In this document: positions 4,614 to 28,733 of the stretch, piece by piece
Layout of the letters: every line of letters starts with the position of its first letter
Numbering within the stretch: position 1 is the first letter of the stretch
IMG/VR virus record: IMGVR_UViG_3300029258_001195
Coordinates: 1-41,051 of that record
Direction: 5' to 3' (one strand)
Length of the DNA stretch: 41,051 nucleotides
DNA from: a virus
Notes under the pieces: generated by a model
The model's input: the letters and a program-made list of their open reading frames with translations, nothing else
What the model was told of the DNA's origin: nothing
Databases searched by the model: none
Position numbers and translations under genes: made by a program

Positions 4614-4614
4614 C

Positions 4615-8378: not shown

Positions 8379-8390
8379 AACCGCACGACG

Positions 8391-8417: not shown

Positions 8418-8463
8418 GGTCCCGTTCCCCCGACACCCGAACCACGAACCACCGAACACCGCC

Positions 8464-8862: not shown

Positions 8863-8876
8863 TCGGAGAGCTCGGC

Positions 8877-9754: not shown

Positions 9755-9765
9755 GCTGAGAAGCG

Positions 9766-10059: not shown

Positions 10060-10062
10060 TCC

Positions 10063-11532: not shown

Positions 11533-11575
11533 GGGCGCACCCGACCAACCCCGACCCCCACCGGAGAACAGACCA

Positions 11576-11938: not shown

Positions 11939-11941
11939 CAC

Positions 11942-11962
11942 CTCGAGCTCGACGAGCTCGAG
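11942..11962 (+). terminator. Perfect inverted repeat after the tail tube gene
   Basis: Arms 11942-11951 and 11953-11962 are perfect 10-bp inverted repeats (CTCGAGCTCG) around a single A; as RNA this gives a 9-bp stem with a GAC loop. It begins four bases after the tube stop and lacks a U tract, so it could attenuate transcription or protect the upstream mRNA end. Confidence 0.45.
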
Positions 11963-11996
11963 CATTCCACAACCCCACCCGGGAGGAGCGATCCCC

Positions 11997-12404
11997 ATGA
12001 CCGAAGAACGAGAAGACGAGGCCGGCCCGCCGGTCCTCGAGCCGACCGCCGCCAACGTCACCCTGAACGAGCACGGGCTCCCGACGTTCGTCGGCCAGCC
12101 CGACGGCTACGGGCTCCAGCCGAACGGAACCTTCCGGCTCCACCTCGAGCACCCGATCCCGTTCGGGAAGCAGGAGACGATCGAGGAGCTCACGTTCCGC
12201 GAGCCGCGCGGCAAGGACTACCGAGCGTTCCCGCTCCAGATGGAGAAGCTCGACATCGGCCAGCTACTCCAGTTCGCCGCCAAGATCACCGGGCGGACCG
12301 ACCGCCAGATCGACGAGCTCGGCGGCGCCGACGTCATGCGCGTCGTGGAGGTCGCCTCGGGTTTTTTCGCCGGGGATCCGGGAGCGATTGGGACGACGCC
12401 CTAG
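11997..12404 (+). CDS. Tail assembly chaperone, zero-frame product (Mu gp41-like)
   Basis: A 135-residue protein of the gpE/gp41 tail-chaperone type, between the tube and tape-measure genes. The family core is visible at about 55-90 (ETIEELTFREPRGKDYRAF), with a helical part ending near VMRVVEVASGFFAG. It is expected to bind the tape measure protein and recruit tube subunits. The gene ends at TAG 12402-12404, shortly after a slippery T TTT TTC at 12362-12368. A GGGAGGAG ribosome site precedes the ATG. Confidence 0.85.
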   Translation: MTEEREDEAGPPVLEPTAANVTLNEHGLPTFVGQPDGYGLQPNGTFRLHLEHPIPFGKQETIEELTFREPRGKDYRAFPLQMEKLDIGQLLQFAAKITGRTDRQIDELGGADVMRVVEVASGFFAGDPGAIGTTP

Positions 12405-12544
12405 GGTTCCTCGCGCTCGAGTGCGGCTGGGGGCCGGCCGAGCTCCTCGAGCTCTCGCGCCCGTCCGAGACCCTCTTCTGGATCCGGACGATCGAGCGTA
12501 GCCTGAAGGCGCGCAACGCGGCGACGCGCCGGGCGCAGCAGTAG
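11997..12544 (+). CDS. Tail assembly chaperone, -1 frameshift product
   Basis: Slipping back one base on T TTT TTC (12362-12368) lets ribosomes leave the short chaperone frame, continue at CGC 12368 and stop at TAG 12542-12544. The product has 124 shared residues plus 58 new ones, about 182 in all. The extension reads like a real protein, with DWDDALGFLALECGW, AELLELSRPSETLFW and a basic helical end, matching the style of Mu gp42 and lambda gpT-like extensions. It has no usable start of its own and fills the otherwise empty gap up to the tape measure gene. Frameshifting here is established for Mu-like and lambda-like phages; in this phage it is inferred. Confidence 0.8.
12362..12368 (+). promoter_or_regulatory. 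-1 ribosomal frameshift slippery site
   Basis: The heptamer T TTT TTC is in the right phase for tandem slippage (zero-frame codons TTT and TTC; after slipping, TTT and TTT). A run of six T is very rare in this GC-rich sequence. GC-rich RNA downstream (12369-12385) could form a stimulatory stem. Confidence 0.8.
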
Positions 12545-12547
12545 CCG

Positions 12548-14044
12548 ATGGCACCGACCCCCAAGTTCCCCGTCCGGATCATCCTCAAGGGCACGGACGG
12601 CGTCTCCGGGCTCCTCAAGCGGATCGGGAGCAAGGTCGGCGGCGTCGCCGGCAGGATCGCGAAGACGACCGCGGGAATCTCCGCGGGGCTCGCGACCGCC
12701 GGCGTGGTCGCCGGTGCCGCGCTCCTCAAGATCACGAACGCGACCGCGGCCGCTGGGGACGAGGCCGCGAAGACCGCGAAGCGGCTGGGGCTCCCGGTCG
12801 AGGCTCTACAGGAGCTCCGGTTCGCGGCGGACCGGGCGGGGATCCAGTCGAGCGTGCTCGACATGGCGATGCAGCGGTTCGGCCGCCGCGCCGCCGAGGC
12901 CGCGATGGGGACCGGCGAGGCGCGCGACGCGCTCCGCCAGCTAGGGATCCAGCTCACGAACGCCGACGGGACGATGAGGTCGGCGGACGACCTCCTCGGC
13001 GACGTCGCCGACTCGCTGTCGAAGGTCGAGAGCCCGCTCGTGCGGAACGCGCTGGCGATGCGGCTGTTCGACTCCGAAGGCGTGAAGATGGTCCAGCTCC
13101 TCGACGAGGGCTCGGACGGAATCGCCGCGCTCCGCGACGAGGCGCGCGAGCTCGGGCTCGTGCTGTCCGTCGAAGCCGCCGCCGCGTCGGAGGAGTTCAC
13201 CGACCGCCAGACCGACATGAAGGCCGCGCTCTCCGGAGTGCGGAACACGATCGGCGCCGCGCTGATCCCGGTCGTCTCTCGACTCACCGAGCGGTTCACC
13301 ACGTTCCTCGTCGGCAACCGCGGCGCGATCGACGCGCTCGTCGAGCGGTTCGCGAAATGGCTCCCCGAGGCCGTCGAGGAATCGAAGCAGATCCTCGAGG
13401 AGCTCCTCCGCGTTCTGCAGCCCGCGTTCGACTTGTTCCGCGCGCTGTCCGATCGGATGGGGCCGCTCCGCGCGGGGCTCATGCTCGTCGGTACCGCGCT
13501 CGCCGCGACCGTCGTCCCCGCGCTCGTCCTCGCGACGGCCGCGGTCGTCAAGTTCACGATCGCCTTGGCGAGCAACCCGATCGGGCTCGTCGCGGTCGCG
13601 GTGTCGCTCCTCGTGGTCGGTCTCGCGCTCCTGTCGGCTCGGATGCTCGCGGCCGGGTTCACGTTCAAGGAGCAATGGATGATCATCAAGATCGCGGTCG
13701 CGTCCGCGCTCGACTTCATCGCGGAAAAGGTCCGGAAGGTCACCGACTCTCTCCCCGACTGGATGGTGGACGTCCTGCGGTTCACCGGCCCCGCGTCGGC
13801 CGGTCTGATCGCGCTGGCGGAGCGCCAGGAGTCGCAGGGCTCGTTCGCCGCGCCGCTCCGGAACGAGCTCCTCGTAACTCGAGGCGCGCGCCTCGCCGCC
13901 GAGGAGCAGGGCCGCCAGGAGGCGGCGCGCGTCGAGGTCGCGTTCGACAACCTCCCGGCCGGCGCGCGAGTGCGCCAGACCGACGGGCCGGACGTGCTCG
14001 ACCTCTCGACCCAGATGGGGTTCTCGCTCGGCGGGGGGTTCTAG
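12548..14044 (+). CDS. Tape measure protein
   Basis: A 498-residue, helix-rich protein that sets tail length and is injected ahead of DNA. The N-terminal part contains a hydrophobic Ala/Gly segment (about 35-62). The segment ETPAKRLGLPVE-like to ELRFAADRAGI (about 80-100) is typical of tape measure proteins in prophages of this group. Two strong hydrophobic stretches (about 310-335 and 345-370) fit the membrane-active region. It is short for the family; at about 0.15 nm per residue it would correspond to a tail near 75 nm. Position after the chaperone pair is diagnostic. Confidence 0.88.
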   Translation: MAPTPKFPVRIILKGTDGVSGLLKRIGSKVGGVAGRIAKTTAGISAGLATAGVVAGAALLKITNATAAAGDEAAKTAKRLGLPVEALQELRFAADRAGIQSSVLDMAMQRFGRRAAEAAMGTGEARDALRQLGIQLTNADGTMRSADDLLGDVADSLSKVESPLVRNALAMRLFDSEGVKMVQLLDEGSDGIAALRDEARELGLVLSVEAAAASEEFTDRQTDMKAALSGVRNTIGAALIPVVSRLTERFTTFLVGNRGAIDALVERFAKWLPEAVEESKQILEELLRVLQPAFDLFRALSDRMGPLRAGLMLVGTALAATVVPALVLATAAVVKFTIALASNPIGLVAVAVSLLVVGLALLSARMLAAGFTFKEQWMIIKIAVASALDFIAEKVRKVTDSLPDWMVDVLRFTGPASAGLIALAERQESQGSFAAPLRNELLVTRGARLAAEEQGRQEAARVEVAFDNLPAGARVRQTDGPDVLDLSTQMGFSLGGGF

Positions 14045-15259
14045 GTGTCTTGGACTGACCGACTCGTCCCCGCCGTGTTCCGCGGCGTCGGGTTCTTCAT
14101 CGATTCGTCGGAGTTCACCACCGGCCGGGACCACGCGCTCCACGCGTTCCCGCAACGGGACACGCAGTACGTGGAGGACATCGGCCGGAAGCCGCGCCGG
14201 TGGCGAGTCCGCGGCTACCTGATCGGCGACGACTACCTCGACCAGAAGGACCGGCTCATCGCCGCGTGCGAGCGCCGGCCGGTGGGCTGGCCGTTCAAGG
14301 CCGACCAGACCCTGCAACACCCCTACTTCGGCGTGCTGGCCGTCCATTGCGAGTCGCTCCGGATCACCGAGACGCGGCGCCAGGGGCGGATCGCGACGTT
14401 CGTGGCGGTGTTCGTCCAGACCGACGAGGTCGAGGGTCCGCGCGAGACCGTCAACGCCGCGGCCGTCGCCGACGGCGCCGCCACCGAGCTCGGCGCGGTG
14501 TCGGGTCCGGTGGTCGAGGAGGGGCTCGTCGCGACCGGGCTCGGGGTGGCCGAGCGCGTCCGCGCCGCGACGACCGCGACGCTCGAGCTCGTCGGCCAGG
14601 CGCTCGACTCGCTCTCGACGATCCGCGGCGCCGTGCTCGAGGTCCAGGCGTTCAAGAGCCGCGTGGCCGGGCTGATCCAGCAGGCGGCCGTCCTCGCGAC
14701 CTCGCCGGTGGACCTCGTCACGTCCGTCCGCGACGCGGTGGACTCGATCTTCGACGCCGCGGGCAACTTCGGGGACAGCCTGTTCGCGTACGAGGAGCTC
14801 CTCGGGCTCGACTCGTCGGGGCTCCTCGAGGGCGGCACCGGCACGACGTCCACGACCGCGAACGCGAACGTCGGGCTCGTTTCGCAGCTCACGCTCGAGG
14901 CGGCCGCCGCCGGCGCGCTCCGCTCGATCGCGCGCGTCGAGTTCGAGAGCCTCGAGGAAGCGATCGACCGCCGGGACTCGCTCGCCGAGCTCCTCGACCG
15001 TGTCCTGCTGTCGGCCCCGTACGAGACGTACGGCCAGCTCCTCGAGCTCTCGGCCCGCCTCGTCGAGCTCGTGCCGCCGGACGGCCAGGCGCTCCCGCGG
15101 CTCCTCGAGCTCCGCCTGAGCCGCACCGAGCCGTCGCTCGTGGTCGCGCATCGTCTGTACGGGGACGCCTCGAGGGCCACCGAGCTCGCCGAGCGGAACC
15201 AGATCGAGCGGCCCGGGTTCGTGCCCGGCGGCCGGGTCCTGCAGGTACTTTCGGAGTAG
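14045..15259 (+). CDS. Mu gpN-like tail/DNA circularization protein
   Basis: A 404-residue protein whose first 130 residues are a DNA_circ_N domain: FRGVGFFIDSSEFTTGRD, ALHAFPQRDTQYVEDIGRKP, RRWRVRGYLIGDDYLDQKD. In Mu, gpN is a baseplate/tail-tip protein; the circularization name is historical. The rest (about 140-400) is helical, ending in a LysM-like stretch with RLYGDASRATELAERNQI and RPGFVPGGRVLQVL, a pattern used for peptidoglycan or hub contact. GTG start abuts the tape measure stop. Confidence 0.88.
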   Translation: MSWTDRLVPAVFRGVGFFIDSSEFTTGRDHALHAFPQRDTQYVEDIGRKPRRWRVRGYLIGDDYLDQKDRLIAACERRPVGWPFKADQTLQHPYFGVLAVHCESLRITETRRQGRIATFVAVFVQTDEVEGPRETVNAAAVADGAATELGAVSGPVVEEGLVATGLGVAERVRAATTATLELVGQALDSLSTIRGAVLEVQAFKSRVAGLIQQAAVLATSPVDLVTSVRDAVDSIFDAAGNFGDSLFAYEELLGLDSSGLLEGGTGTTSTTANANVGLVSQLTLEAAAAGALRSIARVEFESLEEAIDRRDSLAELLDRVLLSAPYETYGQLLELSARLVELVPPDGQALPRLLELRLSRTEPSLVVAHRLYGDASRATELAERNQIERPGFVPGGRVLQVLSE

Positions 15260-15265
15260 ACCGGC

Positions 15266-16399
15266 GTGGCTCCCCTCGCCAACGCCCCCGAGGACGAGGA
15301 GATCCTCCGCGACGCGCTCCGCGTCCGGGTGGACGGGCGGACCTTCACGGGCTGGACCGAGCTCGAGCTCGACCGCTCGCTCGAGGCCGCGACCGGCTCG
15401 TTCCGGCTCCAGTTCCCGACCGACCTGGCGCGGCCGATCCCGGTGCTCCCGTACCAGCGGGTCGAGGTCTCGTTCGAGGACGACCTGGTCGCGACCGGCT
15501 ACGTGGACACCCTCGACGCGACGAGCTCGAGGGGCTCGCGGACCGCGACTATCTCCGGGCGGGACGTTACCGCCGACCTCGTGGACTCCTCCGCACTCGA
15601 GCCGTTCGAGCTCGCCGGCGTGAACCTGTTCGAGCTCGCCACCCGCCTCGCCGATCCGTTCGGGATCGACGTCGTGGCGCGCGCGACCAACATCCTCGAG
15701 CCGTTCCCGACGTTCCGGATCACCCCGGGCGAGAAGGCGTTCGCGGCGCTCGAGCGCGCGGCCCGGCTCCGCGGGGTCCTGATCTTCACGACCGGCGACG
15801 GCCGGCTCGCGCTCGAGGCCCCGGGGATCGCCGGGCTCGCCGGCGTGCCGCTCGTGGAGGATCCGGAGAAGGGCAACATCCTCGAGGCGAAGCTCGCGTT
15901 CTCGAGCGTGGACCGGTTCCAGACCTACCTCGTCCGCGGCCAGGCCGTCGGCAACGCCGACGCGTTCGGGCTCGTCGCTTCGGCGGTGGAGGGCACCGCG
16001 ACCGACCCCGAGGTCGATCGCTACCGGCCGCTTCTCGTGGTCGCGCCGCAGACCGTGTCGATCGAGAGCGCCGAGGAGCTCGCGCGGTGGGAGGCGACCG
16101 TCCGCGCCGCTCGAGCCGCGCGCGTCGAGGTCCAGGTCCAAGGGGTGCGCCAGGAGCCGCGCCCGGGCTCGCCGCTCTGGCGCGTGAACCAGCGCGTCCG
16201 GACCCGGATCCCGACGCTCCAGGTAGACGCGCAGCTCCTCGTCAATCGCGTCCGGTACTCGAGGAGCCGCGGGAGCGGGACGCGCACGACGCTCGAGCTC
16301 GTCCGACGCGACGCGTACGATCCGAAGCCCGCGATCGACCCGGGCGAGGATCCGCTCGCCGCGCTGTTCGGCGGGGAGACCGTGGACCCCGAGCGATGA
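15266..16399 (+). CDS. Baseplate hub protein (Mu gpP-like)
   Basis: A 377-residue protein in the position of Mu gp44/gpP, the hub at the end of the tube. The opening LRVRVDGRTFTGWTELEL followed by LDRSLEAATGSFRLQF is the characteristic first domain. The middle has ATISGRDVTADLVDSSA and a helical ITPGEKAFAALERAARLRG. GTG start at 15266, seven bases after the previous stop; its TGA overlaps the next ATG. It is expected to carry the spike and form a central ring. Confidence 0.88.
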   Translation: MAPLANAPEDEEILRDALRVRVDGRTFTGWTELELDRSLEAATGSFRLQFPTDLARPIPVLPYQRVEVSFEDDLVATGYVDTLDATSSRGSRTATISGRDVTADLVDSSALEPFELAGVNLFELATRLADPFGIDVVARATNILEPFPTFRITPGEKAFAALERAARLRGVLIFTTGDGRLALEAPGIAGLAGVPLVEDPEKGNILEAKLAFSSVDRFQTYLVRGQAVGNADAFGLVASAVEGTATDPEVDRYRPLLVVAPQTVSIESAEELARWEATVRAARAARVEVQVQGVRQEPRPGSPLWRVNQRVRTRIPTLQVDAQLLVNRVRYSRSRGSGTRTTLELVRRDAYDPKPAIDPGEDPLAALFGGETVDPER

Positions 16400-16962
16400 G
16401 CAACCCGCAGAACGTCATCCGGCGACTACTGCAGCCGATCCTCGACCGGATCGCCGCCGGGATCGCGCGCGGCTACGTCCACCTCGTGCGGAACAGCGAA
16501 GGACTCCAGACCCTCCAGCTCGAGCTCCTCCGCGCCGAGCTACGCGACGGGGTCGAACACTTCCAGCCGTACGGGTTCGAGGCCGTGCCGCTCGAGGGCG
16601 CCGAGGCGCTCGTGCTCCACGTCGGCAACAGCCGCGACCACCCGATCGCCGCGGTCGTCACCGACCGCCGGCACCGTCCCACCGATGGCACCGCCGGCAT
16701 GGTCGGGCTCTACGATGACCAGGGCCAGGTCGTGCGGATCTACCGCGACCGGATCGAGCTCGCGAGCTCGACGCGGGTCCAGGTCGTCGCGCCGACGATC
16801 GACCTCGACGGGGACGTGGAGGTCGCCGGGAACGTCACCGCGACCGGGGAGATCGACGACACCGCCGGCACGCTGGCGGCGCTCCGGACGGCGTACAACG
16901 CCCACACGCACGTCTCGGCGGGTCCGGGCAACCCGACCAGCGGCCCGACCCCCACCGCCTAG
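16396..16962 (+). CDS. Baseplate spike protein (Mu gp45-like)
   Basis: A 188-residue membrane-piercing spike. An OB-fold-like first part (VPLEGAEALVLHVGNSRDH, then MVGLYDDQGQVVRIYRDR) is followed by short strand repeats (ATRVQVVAPTIDLDGDV-like, NVTATGEIDD) forming a beta-helix tip. The C-terminal AYNAHTHVSAGPGNPTSG includes HTH, matching the HxH motif that holds an iron ion at the spike apex in Mu-type spikes. ATG overlaps the hub stop (ATGA). Confidence 0.88.
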   Translation: MSNPQNVIRRLLQPILDRIAAGIARGYVHLVRNSEGLQTLQLELLRAELRDGVEHFQPYGFEAVPLEGAEALVLHVGNSRDHPIAAVVTDRRHRPTDGTAGMVGLYDDQGQVVRIYRDRIELASSTRVQVVAPTIDLDGDVEVAGNVTATGEIDDTAGTLAALRTAYNAHTHVSAGPGNPTSGPTPTA

Positions 16963-16966
16963 CACG

Positions 16967-16982
16967 GGCGCCTCGAGGCGCC
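16967..16982. repeat. 16-bp perfect palindrome between spike and next gene
   Basis: GGCGCCTCGAGGCGCC reads the same on both strands. As RNA it gives a 6-bp stem with a UCGA loop, four bases after the spike stop. It could be a weak terminator or protein-binding site; no T tract follows. Confidence 0.4.
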
Positions 16983-16995
16983 TACGCTGGCGAGC

Positions 16996-17226
16996 GTGAA
17001 CCGGCGCCCGGTCGAGGTCGAGGTTTGGGCCGAGGAGGGGCTGGTGGCTCTCACCCGAGACCGGGCGGGGGCGCCGCCCGAGTGCCTCGTGCTCTCTCCG
17101 TCCGAGACCCTCGAGGTCGCCGACAAGCTACGCCGGGCGGCGCGGCGCCTCGAGCGCGCCCGGAGCAGGACCCGGAAGGGCCGCGAGAGGTTCCAGAATG
17201 GCCGATATTGCGATCCGACTGAGTGA
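16996..17226 (+). CDS. Small basic hypothetical protein
   Basis: A 76-residue protein inserted between the spike and gp46 genes, where Mu has no gene. It has a strand-like first part (VEVEVWAEEGLVALTRD) and a basic helical second half rich in Arg. GTG start. The last 29 nt overlap the gp46 gene. Not recognised; function unknown. A real gene is likely, but the start could be later. Confidence 0.5.
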   Translation: MNRRPVEVEVWAEEGLVALTRDRAGAPPECLVLSPSETLEVADKLRRAARRLERARSRTRKGRERFQNGRYCDPTE

Positions 17227-17686
17227 GGCGGGGGCGGACCTCGAGATCGTCGCCGACGACCTGGCGCGCGACGAGGGGCTCCGGCCGGCCGTCCTGATTT
17301 CGCTGTTCTCTGACGCTCGAGCTCCCGAGGGGGCCGAGCTCCCGGGCGGACCGGACACCGACCCGCGGGGGTGGTGGGCGGACCTCGACCGCGAGCGCGG
17401 GATCGGCTCGACCCTGTGGGTCGAGGGCCGGGGCAAGATCACGACCGAGCTACTCGAGCGGATGCGCGCCGCCGCTGCGGCGTCGCTCGCGTGGCTCACC
17501 GAGGACCAGGTCGCCGAGCTCGTCGAGGTCACGGCGACGCGGCGGGGTGGTTCCTCGAGCTCGACCGTTGACCTCGAGGTCCGGATCACGCGCGGGACCG
17601 CGACCCGCTACGGCCAGCTGTGGGCCGGCGTGGAGGACTACGACCTGACTCTCGAGGGTCTCCGGGTGGCTCTCCTGTTCCGATAG
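17198..17686 (+). CDS. Baseplate protein (Mu gp46-like)
   Basis: A 162-residue protein of the GP46 family, corresponding to T4 gp25-type wedge components. Family marks are RPAVLISLFSDARA near 29-42, GGPDTDPRGWWADL near 50-63 and RGIGSTLWVEGRGKIT near 66-82. It helps to join the sheath to the wedges. ATG embedded in the end of the upstream small gene, with GAGAGG before it. Confidence 0.88.
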   Translation: MADIAIRLSEAGADLEIVADDLARDEGLRPAVLISLFSDARAPEGAELPGGPDTDPRGWWADLDRERGIGSTLWVEGRGKITTELLERMRAAAAASLAWLTEDQVAELVEVTATRRGGSSSSTVDLEVRITRGTATRYGQLWAGVEDYDLTLEGLRVALLFR

Positions 17687-17696
17687 GCTCGACCCC

Positions 17697-18749
17697 ATGC
17701 CGTTCGTTGTTCCCACCCTCGCGCAGCTCCGCGCCCGTGTTCGTGCCGACATCGAGAACCGCCTCGGCGTCGGGCCGCTCCTCGACGACTCCGTCCTGGC
17801 CGTGTTCGCGGAGGTCGTCGCCGGCCAGACCCACCTGCTCCACGGGCACCTCGAGTACCTCGCGCGCCAGGTCATCCCCGACACCGCGGACAGCGACTTC
17901 CTCGTCCGGTGGGCCAACCTGTTCGGCGTCATCCGGATCGACGCGACGCCGGCGAGCGGGGACGTCACGTTCACGGGCACCGACGGGACCGCGATCCCGA
18001 CGGGCACGGTCATCCGCCGGTCGGATGGAGCCGACTACGCGACCACCGCCGACGCGACGATCTCCGGGGGCTCCGCGGTCGTCAACGTGCAGGCCGAGCT
18101 CGCCGGCACCGCCGGCAACGCGCCCGCGGCGACGAGCCTCACGCTCGTCTCGCCGATCGCCGGCGCGAACGCGACCGCGACCGTGGACACGGGGCTGACC
18201 GGCGGCGTCGAGACCGAGAGCGACGCGTCGCTCCTCTCGCGGCTCGTCGAAGTTCTCCAGACACCGCCGATGGGCGGGAGCGAGGCCGACTACGTCATCT
18301 GGGCGCGCGAGGTCGCGGAGGTCACGCGCGTCTTCGTGAAGGGCGCGCAGTTCGGGCTCGGCACGGTCGGCGTCGCAATCATGACCGACAACGCTACCGG
18401 CGGCCCGATCCCCGGGGCGGGTAAGGTCGCGGAGGTCCAGGCCGCGATCGACCTCGAGAAGCCCGTGACCGCGTCGGTCACGGTGTTCGCGCCGACCGCG
18501 GTGAACCTCTCCCCGACGATCCAGCTCGTCGGCGCCGATACCGCCGACATCCGGGCCGCGATCGAGGAGGCGCTCGCCGACCTCGTGCTCGAGCTCGGGG
18601 CGCCCGAGACGACGCTGCCGCTCTCCAAGATCCGCGAAGCTATCTCCAACGCGCCCGGGGAAGAGGACCACGTCCTGACCGCGCCGGTCGCGGACGTCAC
18701 GACCACCGCGACGCAGATCCACCAGGTCGGCACCGTCACGTTCGTCTAG
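17697..18749 (+). CDS. Baseplate J-like protein (Mu gp47-like)
   Basis: A 350-residue wedge protein. Typical elements are the N-terminal PTLAQLRARVRADIENRLG, the segment HLEYLARQVIPDTADSDFL, the beta-rich middle (ASGDVTFTGTDGTAIPTGTV) and the C-terminal IREAISNAPGEEDHVLTAP. Length is close to Mu gp47 (about 360). It forms the wedge frame with gp46 and gp48, encoded on either side. Confidence 0.92.
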   Translation: MPFVVPTLAQLRARVRADIENRLGVGPLLDDSVLAVFAEVVAGQTHLLHGHLEYLARQVIPDTADSDFLVRWANLFGVIRIDATPASGDVTFTGTDGTAIPTGTVIRRSDGADYATTADATISGGSAVVNVQAELAGTAGNAPAATSLTLVSPIAGANATATVDTGLTGGVETESDASLLSRLVEVLQTPPMGGSEADYVIWAREVAEVTRVFVKGAQFGLGTVGVAIMTDNATGGPIPGAGKVAEVQAAIDLEKPVTASVTVFAPTAVNLSPTIQLVGADTADIRAAIEEALADLVLELGAPETTLPLSKIREAISNAPGEEDHVLTAPVADVTTTATQIHQVGTVTFV

Positions 18750-18756
18750 CTCCACG

Positions 18757-21234
18757 ATGGAACCGACGCCCAACTACCTGCTGCTCGGGGACCGCAACAT
18801 GGAAGGCCGCGCGCCGGGCGCCGGTCTCCCCGCCGACTACGTCGGGCCGCACCCGAACGTCCGGTCGTGGAACGTGATTACGTCGAACCTCGACGCCGAG
18901 CTCGCCTACCTCGCGAACAACAAGAGCACCAGCGGGTTCTTCGGGTTCGGCCCGGAGCTCTCGTTCGGGACCGCCATCCGCAACTTGAACGGCGGCCGGC
19001 CAGTCACGGTGCAGAAGACCGCGGTCGAGCAATCGTCGGTGTTCCCGTTGTCGGGGATGTTCAACGATTGGGCGATTCAGAACTACACGAACGACCTGCG
19101 CGAAGCTGTGGACGTGAAGGCGGGGCTCGTCGAGTCGGGCGGGTTCTTCGACACGCTCCAGTCGCGCGGGGAGACGACCGACCTGCGCGGCGTGGTCTTC
19201 TCGATCGGGGCACTCGAGTCTCAGAACGCCGACGGGTCGGTGACAGTCGCGACGATGCGCGCGCAGACCGAGGCGTACATCGCCTACGTTCGCGAGCAGG
19301 CGGCCGCGAACGGGCTGAGTCGGCTGCCCGCGTGGGTTCCCGTGCCGTGGGTTCTCATCCTCCCGCCGCGCGACCATATCGACACGACCGCGCCGAACGT
19401 GGACGTCGTCCGCGAGGCGCTCCTCGAGATCGCCGCCAACGACCCGCACGTCCACACGGTCGATGGCGACGGGCTCGAGGTCGGGCTGAGTGTCCAGAAC
19501 ACGTCCGACTACATCGGCGTCGCGCCGCTCGAGCTCGGGGACCGCGCGGCCGAGCTCCTCGGCGAGTACCTGGCGCCGCTCCCGTTCTTCGCGCCGGTGC
19601 CGACGTTCCTCGAGCTTGAGAGCAGCGCGCCCGACCTCGACGGCAAGACCGACCGCTACGGGGGCCAGGCGCTCGACCTCCTCCCCCAAGGGCTCCTGTG
19701 GAACAAGCGCCGCGACACGAACCTGCGCGCCGTGATGGAGGCGTTCGTCCGTGAGTTCGCGCGCGTGGACTGCCGCGGCCGCGACCTGGCGCGCGAGTCG
19801 CTCCCGAGCTCGGCCGTCGAGCTCCTCGCCGATTGGGAGCGCGTGCTCGGGATCCCCGGCGGACCCGACCCGCTCCCCGGGTTCTACCTCGACGCGACCG
19901 ACGAGGGCGGCGACGTCCGCGCGTTCGCGGGCTCGCCGGACTGGCCGAACGCGTCGGACTTCCCCGAGATCGAGTTCACTCTGACCGCGTGGGTCCGCGT
20001 GAAATGGGGCCGGACCGGTGGGGCGAACGGGTGGCTCGACGCGGTCGGCGCGTTCTCGAGCGCGCAGCACCACCTGTTCCGGCGCTTCTCCTCGGGCACG
20101 AACCGGGGGCTCCGGATCCTGTTCCAAGCCGACCACGGGAACACGACCACGCTGACCGGCGGCGCCGTGGCGCCGGCGCTCTCCGTGACCGTCGAGCTCG
20201 GCGACTCGACCGGGTTCCTCCCGTTCCAGATCGCGGCCGACGATGTCGGCGCGCTGGCGGGGACCTTCCCGATCGTCGAGGCGCTCGGCTCCACCGACGA
20301 GGACGGCGTCTCGATCGCGCGCGAGTGGGCGATGGTGTCCGTTACCTACCGCGGCAAGGACGGCCCGGCCGGCGCCTCGAGCGGCGCGCTCCAGTTCTTC
20401 GTCAACGGCCAGCAGATCGGGCCGGACCTCGAGGTCCCCCCGGGCGACCGGATGCTCGAGCCCGACGCCGACGAGGGGATCACGGTCGCGCAGGACGGCT
20501 CGTTCGACCCGTGGCTCGGCGACGTGGACCAGGTCCGCGCCTACGCGCGCGTCCTCCCGCCCGACGAGCTCGCGGTGCTCTACAACGACGGGGCCGGTCG
20601 TGAGATCCACGGGAACGAGGACGCGATCGTCTACGGGTGGGAGTTCGACCTCGAGCAGGGCGGCGTCACACCCGACGCGGTCGGCGCCTACACCGGCGGG
20701 GACCTCACGCTCGGCGCCGAGGCCGCGATCTCGACCAAGCCCGACTACGGGCCGGTCCTGCCCGACCTCGTGTGCCCGAGCGCGCTCGCGGCGACCGAGA
20801 TCCTCCGCCGGTTCGAGGCGGCCGCGAAGCTCTCGTTCCAGGGGTCCGGCGCCGGCCAATCGGAGGCGTTCTTCGTCGAGCTCGCCGCGTCGCTCGGGTT
20901 CTCCGTCACGGTGGACGGGAACGAACCGTTCACGCCGGGAAGCGTCGCCGGCGACTCGATCACCCAAGGGCTGTGGGTCTTCGTCTGGGAGGTCCACGCG
21001 CCCGAGATAAACCCGGTCTTCTTCTCCGCTGGCGAGTCGGGCGCCGGCGAGCCGCTCGTCGCCGACGACGCGACGCCGCTCGTTTGCGGGCTCGAGGAGC
21101 ACAAGCCCGCCCACACTCTCGTGTTCTTCCGTTTCGACCTCGACTACACCGGGCACGCTCCGTGGAGCTCGACCGGCCCGGCCGCCGCCGGCGCCGTCGC
21201 GGTCGCGCCGTCCGTTCTCGCCACCCCGCTATAG
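18757..21234 (+). CDS. Chimeric baseplate protein: SGNH-like domain + gp48 split by a LamG-like domain
   Basis: An 825-residue protein in the Mu gp48 position, four times the usual size of about 200. Residues 1-275 resemble sialate O-acetylesterase-type SGNH hydrolases, with NYLLLGDRNMEGRA at the nucleophile block and FGFGPELSFGTAI as a second block. The usual catalytic Ser is Arg13 and the usual C-terminal DxxH reads DYIG. Residues about 299-368 are the first half of gp48 (ELLADWERVLGIPG). About 405-610 looks like a LamG/concanavalin-type jelly roll (EFTLTAWVRV, GALQFFVNGQQI, VDQVRAYARVL). About 672-825 is the second half of gp48, ending CGLEEHKPAHTLVFF. It is probably a wedge protein displaying glycan-binding domains. 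Confidence 0.8.
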   Translation: MEPTPNYLLLGDRNMEGRAPGAGLPADYVGPHPNVRSWNVITSNLDAELAYLANNKSTSGFFGFGPELSFGTAIRNLNGGRPVTVQKTAVEQSSVFPLSGMFNDWAIQNYTNDLREAVDVKAGLVESGGFFDTLQSRGETTDLRGVVFSIGALESQNADGSVTVATMRAQTEAYIAYVREQAAANGLSRLPAWVPVPWVLILPPRDHIDTTAPNVDVVREALLEIAANDPHVHTVDGDGLEVGLSVQNTSDYIGVAPLELGDRAAELLGEYLAPLPFFAPVPTFLELESSAPDLDGKTDRYGGQALDLLPQGLLWNKRRDTNLRAVMEAFVREFARVDCRGRDLARESLPSSAVELLADWERVLGIPGGPDPLPGFYLDATDEGGDVRAFAGSPDWPNASDFPEIEFTLTAWVRVKWGRTGGANGWLDAVGAFSSAQHHLFRRFSSGTNRGLRILFQADHGNTTTLTGGAVAPALSVTVELGDSTGFLPFQIAADDVGALAGTFPIVEALGSTDEDGVSIAREWAMVSVTYRGKDGPAGASSGALQFFVNGQQIGPDLEVPPGDRMLEPDADEGITVAQDGSFDPWLGDVDQVRAYARVLPPDELAVLYNDGAGREIHGNEDAIVYGWEFDLEQGGVTPDAVGAYTGGDLTLGAEAAISTKPDYGPVLPDLVCPSALAATEILRRFEAAAKLSFQGSGAGQSEAFFVELAASLGFSVTVDGNEPFTPGSVAGDSITQGLWVFVWEVHAPEINPVFFSAGESGAGEPLVADDATPLVCGLEEHKPAHTLVFFRFDLDYTGHAPWSSTGPAAAGAVAVAPSVLATPL

Positions 21235-21239
21235 CAGCC

Positions 21240-22466
21240 ATGCATCGGATCGACACCGCCACCGCCGTCAATTCCCTGTTCGTCGAGAAGGACCCGGTCC
21301 TCGGACTCGCGCCCACCGAGGTCTCCGGCGACTGGCTGAACGCGGTGCAGGAGGAGATCGTCTCGACGATCGAGGGTTCCGGGCTCGTGCTCGACAAGGC
21401 CGACAACACGCAACTGCTCCAGGCGATCGACGCGCGCGTGGCGCCCGGCGTGTTCCGCAAGAACGCGCTGATCAACGCGGCGTTCTCCGTGAACCAGCGG
21501 TTCCCCACCGCGGTCGTGACCGTCGGCGTCGCGTACACGTCGGCGACGACCGAGCCGTACTACGTGGACCGGTGGAGGTTTCAGATCCCGACCGGCGCCG
21601 GCGACCTCCGCGTGCTCCAAGACGAGCACCCGCTCGACGTGACCGCGGAGACGCTCCCGCAGAACCTCGTCGCGCCGCAGTTCTTCCTCAACCTCAACGC
21701 CGTCGCCGGATTCGCGAACGAGCCGCCGACGATGTCCCAACGGATCGAGGACGTCCGTACGTTCGCGGGGCTGAAGGTCGCGCTCTCGTTCTACGCGCGG
21801 ATCAACGCGGGCAGCACGCAGGTCGTCCCCAAGCTGATTCAGGACTTCGGGAGCACCGGCTCGTCGCCCGTCACGCTCACCGGCTCGCCGATCACGCTGA
21901 CGAGCTCGTGGAACCGGTACACCGCGTCGTTCACGCTCGGAAGCCTCGCCGGCAAGACGGTCGGGCTGTTCACCGGTGCGCCCGACCACTACCTCGAGGC
22001 GCTCCTCGAGTTCGATCAATCCGCGACGTTCGACGTGGACGTCTCGCACGTCCAGCTCGAGCGCGGCGTGCTCGCGTCCGAGTTCGAGGCGGTGCGCGAA
22101 GCCGACGAGCTCCTCTCGTGTCTCCGGTACTACGAAAAGAGCACGAACGGGGACCACGCGCCGTCGGTGTCCGAGGTCGTCTCGACCGTGAACGGCGCCT
22201 ACGTCCCCGCGTCGGGGCTCGTCAACAAAGGCGCGAACCGACCCTTCAAGGTCGTGAAGCGCGACGAGCCGACGATGACCTGGTACACGGGCGGGGTGGG
22301 CGCCTCGACGCCCGACCGGATCCTGTGGGGCGGCGTCGTGCGAACGGTCGCCGGCACCGAGGCGAGCTCGCGGAGCGCGTACGCGACGGGCTCGCCGGAA
22401 TGCACCACGGCTCCCGCGTCTCTCGACGAGTACGAATGCAATTGGGAGGCCGACGCGGAGCTCTGA
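21240..22466 (+). CDS. Tail fibre / receptor-binding protein 1
   Basis: A 408-residue fibre after gp48, the Mu fibre position. It opens with an attachment motif found in many prophage fibres (VSGDWLNAVQEEIVSTIEGS, then NTQLLQAID) that recurs at 27678. Residues about 75-285 look like a CBM4/9-type beta-sandwich, with KNALINAAFSVNQRF, YYVDRWRF and VQLERGVLASEFEA. The block ELLSCLRYYEKS then starts a C-terminal tip domain (about 285-408). It probably binds host glycan. Confidence 0.75.
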   Translation: MHRIDTATAVNSLFVEKDPVLGLAPTEVSGDWLNAVQEEIVSTIEGSGLVLDKADNTQLLQAIDARVAPGVFRKNALINAAFSVNQRFPTAVVTVGVAYTSATTEPYYVDRWRFQIPTGAGDLRVLQDEHPLDVTAETLPQNLVAPQFFLNLNAVAGFANEPPTMSQRIEDVRTFAGLKVALSFYARINAGSTQVVPKLIQDFGSTGSSPVTLTGSPITLTSSWNRYTASFTLGSLAGKTVGLFTGAPDHYLEALLEFDQSATFDVDVSHVQLERGVLASEFEAVREADELLSCLRYYEKSTNGDHAPSVSEVVSTVNGAYVPASGLVNKGANRPFKVVKRDEPTMTWYTGGVGASTPDRILWGGVVRTVAGTEASSRSAYATGSPECTTAPASLDEYECNWEADAEL

Positions 22467-22807
22467 TGCTTCCCGGCCCCGGATTCCTCGGCGAGCTCGC
22501 GCCGATCGTCGGCACGGTCTCGAGCATCCTGCTCCTCGTGTTCGTGGTGTGTCTCCGCGGACGCATGAGCCGCGTAGCGGTGGTCCTGTTCGTGCTCGGG
22601 TTCTTGTCGCTCGTCGCCGACGAGATCCATCACGCCGCGCGACTCCACGCGCCGCACGGCTCCGACCTCGGGTTACTCGAGGCGTGGCTCGGCGCGCTCG
22701 CTCCGATCCTCATCCTCGCCGCGGTCGTGGTCCACCTCCACGACCTCGGCATCCTCCGATTCCCCTCGCTCGCCGCCGATGACCCCCGAGACCGCGATCT
22801 CTCCTGA
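22466..22807 (+). CDS. Three-helix membrane protein, holin candidate
   Basis: A 113-residue protein with three likely membrane segments (about 14-31, 36-53 and 74-91) and a short charged end. The start overlaps the fibre stop (TGATG). Size and topology suit a class I holin, and the next two genes also encode small membrane proteins, but no holin family is recognised and no endolysin lies beside it. Confidence 0.5.
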   Translation: MLPGPGFLGELAPIVGTVSSILLLVFVVCLRGRMSRVAVVLFVLGFLSLVADEIHHAARLHAPHGSDLGLLEAWLGALAPILILAAVVVHLHDLGILRFPSLAADDPRDRDLS

Positions 22808-23081
22808 CGTCTGGACCTCGTTCGTCCGCGACTTCGGGCTGCCGACCTTCCTGCTCCTCCTTTTCGTCGCCGCGACGTTGTGGGGAGCTCGCCGGCTGTT
22901 CCCGCTCGCCGAGAGCCTCGTCAAGACCCATGTGGCGTTCGTTGGGGCAATGGAGGAAGAGGCTCGACGGTGCAACCAGGCGCAGGAGCAGTTCCGGGTC
23001 TACCTCAAGGAGCGCGACGACGTCCTGGCGCAAGGACTCGCGGACGTCCGTGAGGAGATCCGAGCCGGCCGGGGGGGATGA
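22779..23081 (+). CDS. Single-span membrane protein with coiled coil, holin-like candidate
   Basis: A 100-residue protein with a transmembrane segment at about residues 19-36 (GLPTFLLLLFVAATLW) followed by a long charged helix (about 45-95). This layout resembles BhlA/UviB-type holin-like phage proteins. It overlaps the previous gene by 29 nt. A holin, a pinholin regulator or an inner-membrane spanin-like part are all possible. Confidence 0.5.
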   Translation: MTPETAISPDVWTSFVRDFGLPTFLLLLFVAATLWGARRLFPLAESLVKTHVAFVGAMEEEARRCNQAQEQFRVYLKERDDVLAQGLADVREEIRAGRGG

Positions 23082-23272: not shown

Positions 23273-23719
23273 ATGGCTAACTTCTGGTACCTCGAGGGGC
23301 TCCTCGCGCTGTTCAAGGGCGAGATCGACCTGGAGAACGACACCCTCCGCGTGCTCCTCGTGATGACGAACACGACGGCCGACACCGACACGACGGCCAA
23401 GTTCGTCGGCGACGTCGGCACGCTCGACGAGCACGACGGCACGCCGTACGCGCGCCAGACCCTCGTGCAGTCGCCGCCCGCGATCGACGCCCCGAACAGC
23501 CGCGTCGAGCTCCCGGCCGCCGCGACCGTGTTCTCGAGCCTCGGCGTCGGGACGCGCGACGTGCAGGCCGCGCTCCTCTACAAGTTCGTGACCGTGGACG
23601 GGGACAGCCCGCTCCTCGTCTACTTCGATTCGGGCGGGTTCCCGTTCTCGCCGAGCGGCGCCGACCTGACGATCAACTGGAACGCCGAGGGCGCCGTCCA
23701 GATCCGGAGCGGCACCTGA
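23273..23719 (+). CDS. Phage structural protein of unknown function
   Basis: A 148-residue beta-rich protein without signal or membrane segment. It has the pattern ALFKGEIDLENDTLRVLLVM then TPYARQTL then DVQAALLYKF, which I associate with small phage proteins encoded near fibres, but no domain name is certain. It is separated from upstream genes by a 112-nt spacer holding nothing recognisable apart from a purine-poor leader, and its stop overlaps the sulfatase start. Probably a virion or fibre-associated protein. Confidence 0.5.
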   Translation: MANFWYLEGLLALFKGEIDLENDTLRVLLVMTNTTADTDTTAKFVGDVGTLDEHDGTPYARQTLVQSPPAIDAPNSRVELPAAATVFSSLGVGTRDVQAALLYKFVTVDGDSPLLVYFDSGGFPFSPSGADLTINWNAEGAVQIRSGT

Positions 23720-25053
23720 TGAGAAGCCCGGTCCCCGCGCTCCTCCTGTCGGTGTGCGGGGCCGTGGCTCTCGAGGCGTTCCAGTTCGAGCCCGGCCCCG
23801 CGCTCCCGCTCCGCCCGCTCGACGTCGTCCTGGTGGACCTCGACGACGTCGGGACGTTCGACCTCGAGGACGACCCGACGGTCGCGACGCCGAACCTCGA
23901 CGCATTCCGGGCGAGCTCGGCGCGGTTCGCGCGCGCGTACACGACCGGACCGGTCTGCAGCGCGTCTCGGGTCTCGGCTCTCCTCGGGGTCTACTCGAGG
24001 CGCCAGGGGATCGGGAGGATCATCAAGAAGGGCGACCCGAACGACGTCGAGCAGGACGCGCCGACGCTCGCGGACGCGTTCACGCGCGCCGGCTACCGGA
24101 CCTGCAAGGTCGGGAAATGGCACCTCTCGGCCGGCGTCGAGTACCCGCTCGAGGACGCGCCCGAGCTCCTCGGGTTCGAGTTCGCGCGCGCGGTCGCGTC
24201 GCACAACCTCGGGGCCACCGCCGGCGCCGGTACCTACTTCTCGTGGGGCCGGATCGACGACGGGGTCGAGACCGTGACGACCGAGTACGCGACCGCCGCC
24301 CAAGCTCGAGCGGCTCGGGAGTGGTGGCTCGAGCACGAGGGCGAGCCGCGGTTCCTGTGGCTCTCGTTCACCGCCGCCCACGCGCCGTTCCACGAGGCGC
24401 CGGCCCCGTACTACACCGGGCCGCCGACGGCCGGGGACGGGCGCCTCGAGTTCGAGAGCATGATCGAGGCGCTCGACGACCGGCTCGGCACCGTGCTCGA
24501 GGTTCTCGATCCGTGCACGACGCTCGTGGTCGTCTCGTGCGACAACGGCTCGGCCATGCCGCCGCCGCCGCCGGTGCCCGTGTTCGCGAAGGCCGGCGCC
24601 CCGGGAGTCACCGAGCTCGCGATCGAGACCCCGCTCTACGTCCGCGGCCCCGGCATCCGTCCGGGAGCTCGTCGCCAGCTCGTCTCCGTCCTCGACCTTT
24701 GGGCGACGCTCGAGGAGCTCCTCGGGCTCCCGATCCCGGCCCCGACCGACGGGGTCTCGTTCGCCGGCGCGCTCGTGCCGTGGAGCTCGGCGCCGCCGCG
24801 GGAGTGGCTGTTTGCGGAGCGGTTCTTCCCGAACTACGCGCCCGAGCTCGGCGAGCCCGGGCCGGCGGGGTTCAACGCGCGCGAGCGCGCGATCGTCCGC
24901 GCCGACGGGTGGAAGCTCCGCGTGGATGAGACGGGCGGGGCCGAGGCGTTCCGCGGGCTGTTCCACCTCCCGAGCGACCCGCTCGAGCTCGCGCCCGTGG
25001 ACGACCCGGCGCTCGAGCTCGAGCTCCAGGCGCTCCTCGACCTGTTCCCGTAG
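23719..25053 (+). CDS. Sulfatase (type I, formylglycine-dependent)
   Basis: A 444-residue sulfatase that should hydrolyse sulfate esters, probably on a sulfated glycan. The expected blocks appear in order: metal Asp42/Asp43 in VVLVDLDDVG, TPNLDAFRASSARFARAYTT, the formylglycine core C80-S-A-S-R84 (CxAxR), AGYRTCKVGKWHL with active-site Lys and His, LSFTAAHAPF, SCDNG, and TPLYVRGPGIRPG. Cys80 must be converted to formylglycine by a host enzyme, and Ala in place of the common Pro is within known variation. A hydrophobic N-terminus (about 5-20) may be a signal peptide. The ATG overlaps the previous stop. A sulfatase among fibre genes is very unusual; it may trim the host coat. Confidence 0.92.
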   Translation: MRSPVPALLLSVCGAVALEAFQFEPGPALPLRPLDVVLVDLDDVGTFDLEDDPTVATPNLDAFRASSARFARAYTTGPVCSASRVSALLGVYSRRQGIGRIIKKGDPNDVEQDAPTLADAFTRAGYRTCKVGKWHLSAGVEYPLEDAPELLGFEFARAVASHNLGATAGAGTYFSWGRIDDGVETVTTEYATAAQARAAREWWLEHEGEPRFLWLSFTAAHAPFHEAPAPYYTGPPTAGDGRLEFESMIEALDDRLGTVLEVLDPCTTLVVVSCDNGSAMPPPPPVPVFAKAGAPGVTELAIETPLYVRGPGIRPGARRQLVSVLDLWATLEELLGLPIPAPTDGVSFAGALVPWSSAPPREWLFAERFFPNYAPELGEPGPAGFNARERAIVRADGWKLRVDETGGAEAFRGLFHLPSDPLELAPVDDPALELELQALLDLFP

Positions 25054-25056: not shown

Positions 25057-26607
25057 GTGCCCACCGAGGTCGTCGAGACTGTCGGGAGCGGGGGGACCTA
25101 CACGACCCTCGCCGCTTGGGATACGGCGACGAGGACGCTCGACCTCCCGGCGCTCGACGAGGTTCGTATCGCCGAGATCATCCAGCCGACGCCGCTGGTC
25201 CTTGGCTCGCTCCTGTTCCTGCGCAACACGTTCTACGGGGGAGTGTCGGACGCGACGCGCTTCCGGTGGATCCGACCCGCGATGGGCAACGGCTACAACC
25301 CTTCCGCGGGAACGGGAGCCGCTCTCCAGCGCACGAACAGCGTAGTTCGGATTCAGGAGGACCACCTCCGGTTCGGACATTGCGGCTACGGGAGCGGGCT
25401 GCTCGGCGTCCTGATGCCGAGCTCGAGCTCGACCGCGATCCTCCGGTGTGTGCGAGTGGACCGGGGAATCTGGGTGGACTCGATCCACGCCGAGCACAAC
25501 GGGGGGAGCAACGCCGCGAACAACGTGTTCCAGGCTTCGGTCGGCGTGACTGGAGCGGCGACGTTCACCAATTGCACCGCGATCGGTTCTAACAACACGA
25601 CGAGCACCGGTCGGGTGGGTCCGCGCTACGGCTTCCGCGACCTTACGACCTTCGGCTCGGGAGAGGCCCGGTTCGTCAATTGCAACGCCTACCAGATACG
25701 GCAGGCACTGATCGGGTTCCCGTCTACCAGCTCGTTCGGCACCGGGTTCGAGGCGACGGGCAACACGAACGCGCGCGTAATCAATTGCAGCGCGATCGAG
25801 AACGGCTACGCGGTCGCCGGCAATCAGGACTTCAACGTCGGCGCGATCGCTGAGTTCCGGCATTGCGTGTCCGGGGACTCGAGCGCGACCGGTGCGAACA
25901 GCTTCACCGGCCAGACCGCCGCGAACACATGGGAGCGTCCGGCCGTCGGCGCCTTCCAGCCGTCCGGCGCCGGGCTCTCGAAGCTCATCAACACCGGCAC
26001 GGACGCCGGCTACCTGTTCATCCCGCTCGGAAGCGGGGTCGAGTTCGACGCGGCCGGGGAGCAGCACAACCTCGACGGGTTCGGGTGGGAGATCGGCGCT
26101 TTCAACTTCGACACGTCGGTGTCGCCAGACCCAGCGGGCTCGATCGCCACCGGCCCGGCGCTCGAGCTCCTGAGGACTCTCGTGCCCGACGCGTCGGCGG
26201 CCGTCGCGACCTCCCCGCTCGTGGCGCTCCTGATCGCGACGAACCCCGAAAGCGCGCTGGCCACCGCCGTCGGTTCGATTGTCGGGATCCAGACCGGAGT
26301 GAACCCGGCGCCGGGCGGGGCCATCGCGCTAGGTCCGGCGGTCTCGCTCGGGCTCACGTTGAACCCCAACGCCGGCGAGGCGGTGGCGATCGCGCCGCTC
26401 GTCGAGCTCCTCGTCGCGGCGGCGCTGCCGGTGGTCTGTTTCGAGCTCGGGATCAACCGGACCGAGGCGCTCGAGCTCCTCATCTCGCGCCGGGTCGGCC
26501 GTTCCGGTAGGGTCGAGCGCGTTCTCGACCAGGCGCTCCGGGTCGGCCGCAGCCGGCTCTCGAGCGCCGCAATCCGCCGGACCCTCTCGAGCTCCCGCAT
26601 ACGATGA
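25057..26607 (+). CDS. Beta-helix tailspike-like protein with C-terminal repeat
   Basis: A 516-residue protein. Residues about 1-350 look like a right-handed beta-helix, with repeated short strands and Asn/Cys turns such as ATFTNCTAIGSNN, ARFVNCNAY, ARVINCSAIENG and AEFRHCVSG. This is a common fold for tailspikes that bind or cut glycans; no catalytic set can be assigned. Residues 360-458 hold five 20-residue repeats. The last 50 residues are basic and helical. GTG start three bases after the sulfatase stop, so the two are coupled and may act on the same glycan. Confidence 0.65.
   Translation: MPTEVVETVGSGGTYTTLAAWDTATRTLDLPALDEVRIAEIIQPTPLVLGSLLFLRNTFYGGVSDATRFRWIRPAMGNGYNPSAGTGAALQRTNSVVRIQEDHLRFGHCGYGSGLLGVLMPSSSSTAILRCVRVDRGIWVDSIHAEHNGGSNAANNVFQASVGVTGAATFTNCTAIGSNNTTSTGRVGPRYGFRDLTTFGSGEARFVNCNAYQIRQALIGFPSTSSFGTGFEATGNTNARVINCSAIENGYAVAGNQDFNVGAIAEFRHCVSGDSSATGANSFTGQTAANTWERPAVGAFQPSGAGLSKLINTGTDAGYLFIPLGSGVEFDAAGEQHNLDGFGWEIGAFNFDTSVSPDPAGSIATGPALELLRTLVPDASAAVATSPLVALLIATNPESALATAVGSIVGIQTGVNPAPGGAIALGPAVSLGLTLNPNAGEAVAIAPLVELLVAAALPVVCFELGINRTEALELLISRRVGRSGRVERVLDQALRVGRSRLSSAAIRRTLSSSRIR
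26134..26430 (+). repeat. Five tandem 20-residue protein repeats
   Basis: Codons for five imperfect units, each ending in a turn (VPD, NPE, NPA, NPN, ALP) and carrying the pattern A-x-A-x-x-P-x-V-x-L-L. Examples are ASAAVATSPLVALLIATNPE and PGGAIALGPAVSLGLTLNPN. The DNA is diverged, so this is an old protein repeat, not a recent duplication. Confidence 0.75.
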
Positions 26608-27014: not shown

Positions 27015-27347
27015 ATGCTCCGCGCTCTCTCCGCCGTCCTCGTGCTCGCGCTCGCGAGCTCGTGCAACGCGACCCAGATCCCTCGCGAGTGGATCGAGGC
27101 CGACCGGGCGACGTTCGACGCCGTCGCGTTCGAGTACGCCGCCTACGTCCAGGCCGACCCGGGGCTGTCGCCGGTGCAGGTCTCCGCGCGCCTCGAGCTC
27201 CTCCAGGATTGGAACCTCCGGATCGCGGTGGGCGAGGAGCTCGTCGGGATCCTCGAGGAGCTCGTGAAGCCCGAGCCGCTCGAGTTCCCGAAGCCCCAGC
27301 CGCTACCGCCGGCGGAGCCCGCGCCCGAGCCCGACCCGGAACCCTAG
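27015..27347 (+). CDS. Predicted lipoprotein with proline-rich tail
   Basis: A 110-residue protein with a signal peptide (MLRALSAVLVLALASS) and a lipobox-like LASSC placing Cys17 at the cleavage site, so it is probably lipid-anchored in the envelope. A helical middle is followed by a Pro/Glu-rich end (PKPQPLPPAEPAPEPDPEP). A short, Pro-rich phage lipoprotein recalls Rz1-type outer-membrane spanins, but the usual Rz partner is not obvious. GGAGG ribosome site before the ATG. A receptor-blocking (superinfection exclusion) lipoprotein is an alternative. Confidence 0.6.
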   Translation: MLRALSAVLVLALASSCNATQIPREWIEADRATFDAVAFEYAAYVQADPGLSPVQVSARLELLQDWNLRIAVGEELVGILEELVKPEPLEFPKPQPLPPAEPAPEPDPEP

Positions 27348-27677: not shown

Positions 27678-28733
27678 ATGGACCGTATCGCCGCACCCGG
27701 CAACGTCTCCGGGCTGTTCGCCGAGGGCAACCCGTTCCAGGGGGTCCCGGCCACGATCGTCTCGAGCCCGTGGCTCAACGGCGTGCAGGAGGAGCTCCTC
27801 TCGATCATCGAGGCCGCCGGCGTGACGCCGAACCAGGCCGCGACGAACCAGGTTCTCGCCGCGCTCCTGACCCTGTTCGGGACGTCCGACGACGCTCTCC
27901 TGGCGACGGCCGCGGCGCCGCTCGAGAGCGGGCACCCGCTCCCGGACTCGCGCCATCCGATCGTTCTCCTCGCGCAGTCGGGGGTCTGGGCCGCCGGCGT
28001 GACGACCGAGGCGCCGACGCAGGGCACGAGCTCGGGCGGTTCCGGCCCCGGTGCCGCCGACAACACGACCGAGGGGAACGAGTACGACACGAGCCTGTAC
28101 CCGGGCGACGCGTGGCCGTTCACGGTTCCCAGCGCGCTCATGGCGCACGACACCGCCGGCGCGTTCCCGGCCGCGCGCCTCGGGACGAACGTCAACTTCT
28201 ACCGGCACGGGTTCCTCCTCCCCGCCGGGCTGTTCGTGAACGGCGCGCGCCTCGAGGTCGAGCTCTCGGGCACGATCGAGGGCAGCGAAGCCGCGCGCGT
28301 GTTCGAGGCGATCCTCGAGCCCGACTACGACCCGGACGGCGCGTACACGAACGCCGAGGCGTTCCCGTTCCATTGCGGCCCGATCGCCGCGCCGTCGGGC
28401 GAGGAGGCGTTCCGGTTCACCGCCGCGTTGACGGTCCTCGGGTTCGACGACGGCACGAACGAGTGGATCGTCCTGGCCGACGCGACGTTCCGGACCGGCA
28501 ACACCGAGATCGGCAACCCGACCGAGTACCAGCGCACGTACGAGCGCCGGATCCCGATCGCGAAGGCCGACCTCGAGCTCGAGGACACGCTGTGGTCGGT
28601 GCGGTTCAAAACCGACGACTTCGGCTCGACCCTCGGCGACGAGGGGAACAGCAGCGGCTCGACGCAGGACGGCTCCGCGTCGGTGATCACCGCTCGCCAC
28701 TACTCCGTCACGCTCTACCCCGGGGGACACTAG
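27678..28733 (+). CDS. Tail fibre / receptor-binding protein 2
   Basis: A 351-residue protein whose first 65 residues match the start of the fibre at 21240 (WLNGVQEELLSIIEAAG then NQVLAALL), so both probably attach to the same baseplate site. A Gly/Ser-rich hinge (about 115-130) leads to a different C-terminal beta-rich domain (about 140-351). It may be an alternative or additional fibre. The neighbouring hydrolase-like gene starts at its stop. Confidence 0.65.
   Translation: MDRIAAPGNVSGLFAEGNPFQGVPATIVSSPWLNGVQEELLSIIEAAGVTPNQAATNQVLAALLTLFGTSDDALLATAAAPLESGHPLPDSRHPIVLLAQSGVWAAGVTTEAPTQGTSSGGSGPGAADNTTEGNEYDTSLYPGDAWPFTVPSALMAHDTAGAFPAARLGTNVNFYRHGFLLPAGLFVNGARLEVELSGTIEGSEAARVFEAILEPDYDPDGAYTNAEAFPFHCGPIAAPSGEEAFRFTAALTVLGFDDGTNEWIVLADATFRTGNTEIGNPTEYQRTYERRIPIAKADLELEDTLWSVRFKTDDFGSTLGDEGNSSGSTQDGSASVITARHYSVTLYPGGH

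Follow-up and report, generated by a model that had tools for sequence, protein, structure and literature searches.

In S1 sulfatases the role of each active-site residue is well established, and bacteria such as Planctomycetota secrete sulfatases that serve the breakdown of polysaccharides. Some phages carry SGNH esterases on their tails with which they shave glycans (PMC13123978), and formylglycine-generating enzymes (FGEs) have been reported in Pseudoalteromonas phages (PMC10232697). In a search of 5.39 million open-access papers, we found no published description of a phage-encoded sulfatase. Here we analyzed a stretch of 41,051 nucleotides, the IMG/VR virus record IMGVR_UViG_3300029258_001195 (the window), in which an initial annotation had noted a type I sulfatase gene at 23719..25053. 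The sulfatase gene with its sequence features, the genes around it out to the two tail fibres, and the packaging, head, tail and baseplate module lie on the plus strand.

The window is a contractile-tailed phage (myovirus, Caudoviricetes), with TerL, portal, capsid, sheath, tube and baseplate genes in order. Its packaging, head, tail and baseplate module (2460..21234) comprises TerL, portal, head/protease, sheath, tube, tape measure, hub and wedge. The gene order runs from small and large terminase through portal, head/protease, head closure, tail terminator, sheath and tube to tape measure, hub, wedge, a tail fibre, small membrane proteins, a phrog_644 protein and the sulfatase, which is followed by an unassigned 516-aa protein, small proteins and a second tail fibre. 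A fusion of a ParB-like nuclease and a DNA methyltransferase is encoded just upstream of the terminase (2-1441), and a second protein with a signal-like N terminus near the right end (38645-40084), the latter being kept at 43% in locus L104 of the related phage genome G047. No integrase or repressor was recognized among the scanned ORFs of the window, and either a temperate or a lytic lifestyle fits the phage.

A second assembly, IMGVR_UViG_3300017989_000297, matches positions 1-32474 of the window (32,474 bp) at 99.975% identity, with eight SNPs, none of them within the sulfatase gene. The second assembly opens with the last 11 bases of the window (41041-41051), and these overlap the window start (1-3) by GAG; the genome therefore closes as a circle of about 41,048 bp, which is confirmed by G047, where the right-end genes of the window directly precede the terminase. 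Codon usage of the sulfatase gene correlates with that of the core structural genes at 0.985, consistent with long residence in the phage. A bacterial contig joined to the phage by assembly error, which could be suspected given that the nearest sulfatases outside phages are bacterial, is exceedingly unlikely because two assemblies agree over 32,474 bp and close the circle; moreover, a diverged phage has the same junctions and codon usage is phage-like. We therefore rejected misassembly, and a real sulfatase in the late region of a real phage, as described in the initial annotation, was borne out.

The diverged phage is G047 (loci L104 and L083), which is colinear with the window over 26.9 kb, with 37-82% protein identity of the matched genes and a GC content of 62% in L083 versus approximately 72% in the window. 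Its sulfatase is 51% identical and lies between the same neighbors, the common order being baseplate, fibre, phrog_644, sulfatase and next gene. The more distant G048 (L084) has the same backbone without a sulfatase; in that genome, the gene after phrog_644 encodes a 644-aa repeat protein. The sulfatase was also absent from 42 TerL-related viral records and from 18 of the 19 phrog_644-related viral records. The sulfatase is a clade-specific cargo gene.

The initial annotation had the sulfatase gene flanked by a structural gene on one side and a beta-helix spike gene on the other, which was confirmed only in part. Tail-fibre genes flank it a few genes outward on either side, namely fibre 1 (21231..22466; phrog_4492, E=1.1e-42) and fibre 2 with its fibre-type N terminus (27678..28733; phrog_1858, E=1.1e-14). 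Of the immediate neighbors, the upstream one (23273..23719) belongs to phrog_644 (E=2.9e-16), a phage family without known function, and is 82% identical in L083. The downstream one, of 516 aa (25057..26607), had no match to a Pfam, PHROG or NCBIfam family, which speaks neither for nor against a beta-helix spike, and its first 75 residues match the protein in the same place in L083 at 36%. Two short membrane-protein genes (22466..23081), which had no family match above curated cut-offs, are holin-like by position and hydropathy only, and a small protein with a lipobox-like SSC (27015..27347; 31% match in L084) is Rz1-like by appearance only, judged from sequence and hydropathy. Beyond fibre 2, a 368-aa protein (28734-29840) has the look of an alpha/beta-hydrolase (KGGDY, GFGSGA) and no convincing database match. 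The baseplate wedge protein (18757-21234, Mu gp48 type) has two additional regions, a LamG domain of the concanavalin type and, at the N terminus, a segment with weak resemblance to SASA whose usual catalytic Ser is replaced by Arg (GDRNMEG), as it is in L083; shorter homologues elsewhere are without the LamG and SASA-like regions.

The sulfatase ORF starts with ATG, preceded at a distance of 9 nt by the ribosome-binding site GGAG, overlaps the stop of the phrog_644 gene by 1 nt, and shows a coding-type GC distribution over the three codon positions (0.73/0.52/0.95). Its 444-aa product is almost certainly a member of the S1 sulfatase family and was full-length as initially annotated: Pfam Sulfatase (PF00884) matched residues 36-336 (E=1e-25; 91 bits against a curated cut-off of 25), and a sequence search of solved structures returned 72 sequences at E<=1e-3, with S1 sulfatases to E=1e-21. 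The fold comparison proposed at that stage pointed the same way. An AlphaFold2 (AF2) model of moderate quality (pLDDT 64.5, pTM 0.73; residues 367-444 below 50) matched S1 sulfatases in Foldseek at E=7.6e-22, with TM scores of approximately 0.62-0.68 among the best matches, indicating the S1 alkaline-phosphatase-type fold. A SulfAtlas S1 subfamily (e.g. S1_19 or S1_16) is not assignable because the identity of 20-24% to solved members is too low.

According to alignments, nine of the ten canonical active-site residues are in place. The formylglycine core C80-S-A-S-R84 (23956..23970) conforms to the motif C/S-x-P/A-x-R, as does CSPSR in L083; the metal ligand set (Asp, Asp, Asp, Asn/His) is represented by D42 and D43 (23842..23847) and D275 and N276 (24541..24546); and the Lys and His of the GKWH segment and the His of the AxH segment correspond to K133 and H135 (K133-W-H135, 24115..24123) and H221 (24379..24381). 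Thus, the motifs initially listed (D42/D43, CSASR, GKWHL and SCDNG) were all present, with H221 in addition. The description of the active site as intact was overstated by one residue. The sulfate-binding Lys after the DNG motif occupies the same column in 17/17 aligned relatives and is Ala in the window protein, where the nearest Lys, Lys291 (24589..24591), lies three residues upstream and out of register, in a loop (287-301) modelled with a confidence below 50. The L083 sulfatase keeps the canonical Lys, and its second metal-ligand Asp is Cys. Because the canonical sulfate-binding Lys is displaced, the active site appears nearly complete rather than intact, and given this displacement and the Asp-to-Cys replacement in the sister protein, activity could be weak or lost. 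These two replacements, together with the Arg at the catalytic Ser position of the baseplate SASA-like segment, would suit a dead or weakened sulfatase fold that is kept as a sulfated-glycan-binding protein. We consider this improbable, since the two proteins, only 51% identical overall, agree in eight core residues, Cys80 and Arg84 among them, and a pure binder would have no need of a formylglycine core.

The sulfatase begins with MRSPVPALLLSVCGAVA, followed by LEAF; this N terminus has the three-part (n, h, c) layout of a Sec signal. Residues 1-17 (23719..23769) are a predicted Sec-type signal with an AVA cleavage-type site, based only on the sequence through hydropathy ranking and the motif, and residues 5-21 were modelled as a helix in the AF2 model. 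At 2.59, the best 11-residue N-terminal hydropathy of the sulfatase falls among those phage proteins that are membrane proteins or look exported, and the remaining phage proteins, virion proteins included, reach at most 1.93. The N terminus of the L083 sulfatase is unrelated in sequence and higher in hydropathy (3.34). Signal-like N termini are also present in several bacterial relatives; the sulfatases of T4-like phages are without one. An enzyme built into the virion would lack an export signal and carry a tail-attachment domain, but here Pfam and PHROG profile searches found a sulfatase domain only and no tail-attachment domain. Because the protein begins with a Sec-type signal, export from the infected cell appears more likely than incorporation into tails. 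The initial proposal that the sulfatase is made with the virion was accordingly not upheld, given an N terminus that resembles those of membrane or exported proteins, and of several bacterial relatives, and not those of virion proteins.

It is nonetheless conceivable that the sulfatase is attached to the tail or the baseplate, with its hydrophobic N terminus as a docking helix, and removes sulfate from a surface glycan at adsorption. The gene lies between tail-fibre genes, the baseplate protein has concanavalin-type and weak SASA-like regions, fusions exist in that the sulfatase domain of the unrelated viral contig L149 lies within a 1067-aa protein, and glycan-shaving SGNH esterases are borne on tails (PMC13123978). 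Set against the signal-type N terminus with its AVA site, the free-standing form of the protein and the signal-like segments of several bacterial relatives, we regard a virion enzyme as unlikely.

In a maximum-likelihood tree, the window and L083 sulfatases were sisters (100/100) within a group that also contains six Planctomycetota sulfatases (98/96); the sulfatases of T4-like phages stood apart from this lineage. The nearest relatives found outside phages were Planctomycetota sulfatases (loci L166-L177) with 30-36% identity. The underlying sulfatase profile search covered 392 Planctomycetota genomes (threshold 1e-55) and 398 Pseudomonadota genomes (1e-50), and no more than four candidates were scored in each genome; close sulfatases were found only in Planctomycetota, among two phyla sampled at differing thresholds. 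Acquisition from a secreted bacterial sulfatase, with Planctomycetota as the source, is thus the most likely origin. The backbone does not single out a host, being equally close to prophages of both phyla, with a sheath identity of 48% in Planctomycetota and in Pseudomonadota. The head protein has at most 36% identity in Planctomycetota. A colinear prophage-like region is present in a Planctomycetota genome of 69% GC (L137:485-17854, G272 contig 2), with identities of 51% for TerL, 48% for sheath and 57% for tube.

No gene of the FGE family (PF03781) was found in the window, which supports the initially proposed dependence on a host formylglycine-generating enzyme. Six Planctomycetota genomes had 7 to 42 FGE-family matches each, the Pfam family being wider than the maturing enzyme itself.

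The sulfatase had also been called an exceptional cargo for a phage. This holds only in part: carriage by phages is rare but not unique, as a few unrelated phage contigs carry sulfatases too. A scan of 2.9 million viral contigs with a strict DNA pattern for the formylglycine (FGly) motif gave 14 matches, 13 of them with sulfatase ORFs, T4-like phages among them; some of these 13 contigs may be partly bacterial. The number is a lower bound because the sensitivity of the pattern is low (6 sites in three genomes with 92 match segments listed together). The proposed homologue search in phage genomes thus yielded the L083 orthologue at 51% identity and 13 further contigs, but no sulfatase in the 42 TerL-related records. 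In T4-like phages, sulfatases without a signal peptide are encoded in the structural operon near the portal (L144:2872-4278, directly after the portal gene, and L141:8978-10372), and the 1067-aa protein with an internal sulfatase domain (L149:807-4007) is a candidate virion-borne sulfatase. The L144 sulfatase as query matched 38 entries in the GenBank phage collection, including two Campylobacter phages and many unannotated faecal contigs, some of which may be bacterial. The GenBank "phage" match AFYI01000001, which bears the title Salmonella enterica serovar Infantis, was set aside as probably bacterial. PHROG 19870, to which no function is assigned, matched the sulfatases of the window (E=1.6e-23), L083, L144 and L149. 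Strong fold matches of the window sulfatase in BFVD were to giant viruses only.

The reading that we favor, with a probability of about 0.45 for the statement as a whole, is that of a late-made, host-matured and exported sulfatase that desulfates the glycans of the cell itself near the time of lysis, which would ease release and prevent re-adsorption. The gene would have been gained from a secreted bacterial sulfatase before the window phage and its sister diverged, and would be expressed late; it is part of a single compact cluster that also comprises late tail genes and putative lysis genes. The protein would be made by the infected cell, a host FGE, if present, would convert Cys80 to formylglycine, and the Sec signal would carry the enzyme across the inner membrane. 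Late in infection, sulfate esters may then be taken off a sulfated surface or extracellular glycan, and this could help release and stop progeny from re-binding cell debris, in a receptor-destroying role. That the phage lineage uses the exported, host-matured FGly sulfatase as a receptor-destroying enzyme on a host surface glycan late in infection is a rather doubtful proposition.

Alternatively, an exported sulfatase could free sulfate or desulfate sugars in the surroundings and so feed the infected cell, or the lysogen should the phage be temperate. Such a metabolic role would agree with the use of secreted sulfatases in polysaccharide degradation by Planctomycetota and with relatives from sulfatase-rich Planctomycetota genomes. 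It has a slim chance of being correct, given that the gene lies within the late tail block, where genes overlap tightly, and is not placed early or independently, that a candidate host would already have dozens of sulfatases, and that no integrase or repressor was recognized.

If the sulfatase is active, desulfation joins the repertoire of phage glycan-modifying enzymes, phage fitness is tied to a post-translational modification made by the host, and the enzyme provides an entry point to sulfated surface glycans and to the phages of little-studied bacteria, e.g. Planctomycetota. A receptor-destroying role, if true, would mean that the surface glycans of a bacterial host, plausibly a planctomycete, are sulfated and that the phage needs the FGE of this host. 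To our knowledge, no function of this kind has previously been shown in phages.

In comparison with the nearest solved S1 sulfatases (among them PsS1_19B 6prm, an S1_16 sulfatase 9fo1, 7stv and human arylsulfatase A), the window protein shares the fold, CSASR, the DD/DN pairs, GKWH and His221, but is only about 20-24% identical, has its Lys out of register and a C terminus modelled at low confidence, and is phage-borne. Although it matches PHROG 19870, it differs from the T4-like members in tree position and in its signal-like N terminus. Several secreted sulfatases of Planctomycetota (L166-L177) likewise have signal-like N termini, but these are chromosomal and have the canonical Lys in register. 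In its proposed working, the window sulfatase resembles the SGNH tail-fibre esterases of coliphage G7C (gp63.1) and of Klebsiella prophage fibres (PMC13123978), which are likewise phage-made and trim glycan substituents while leaving the backbone uncut. Those esterases, however, are virion proteins of another fold and chemistry, whereas the sulfatase described here looks exported.
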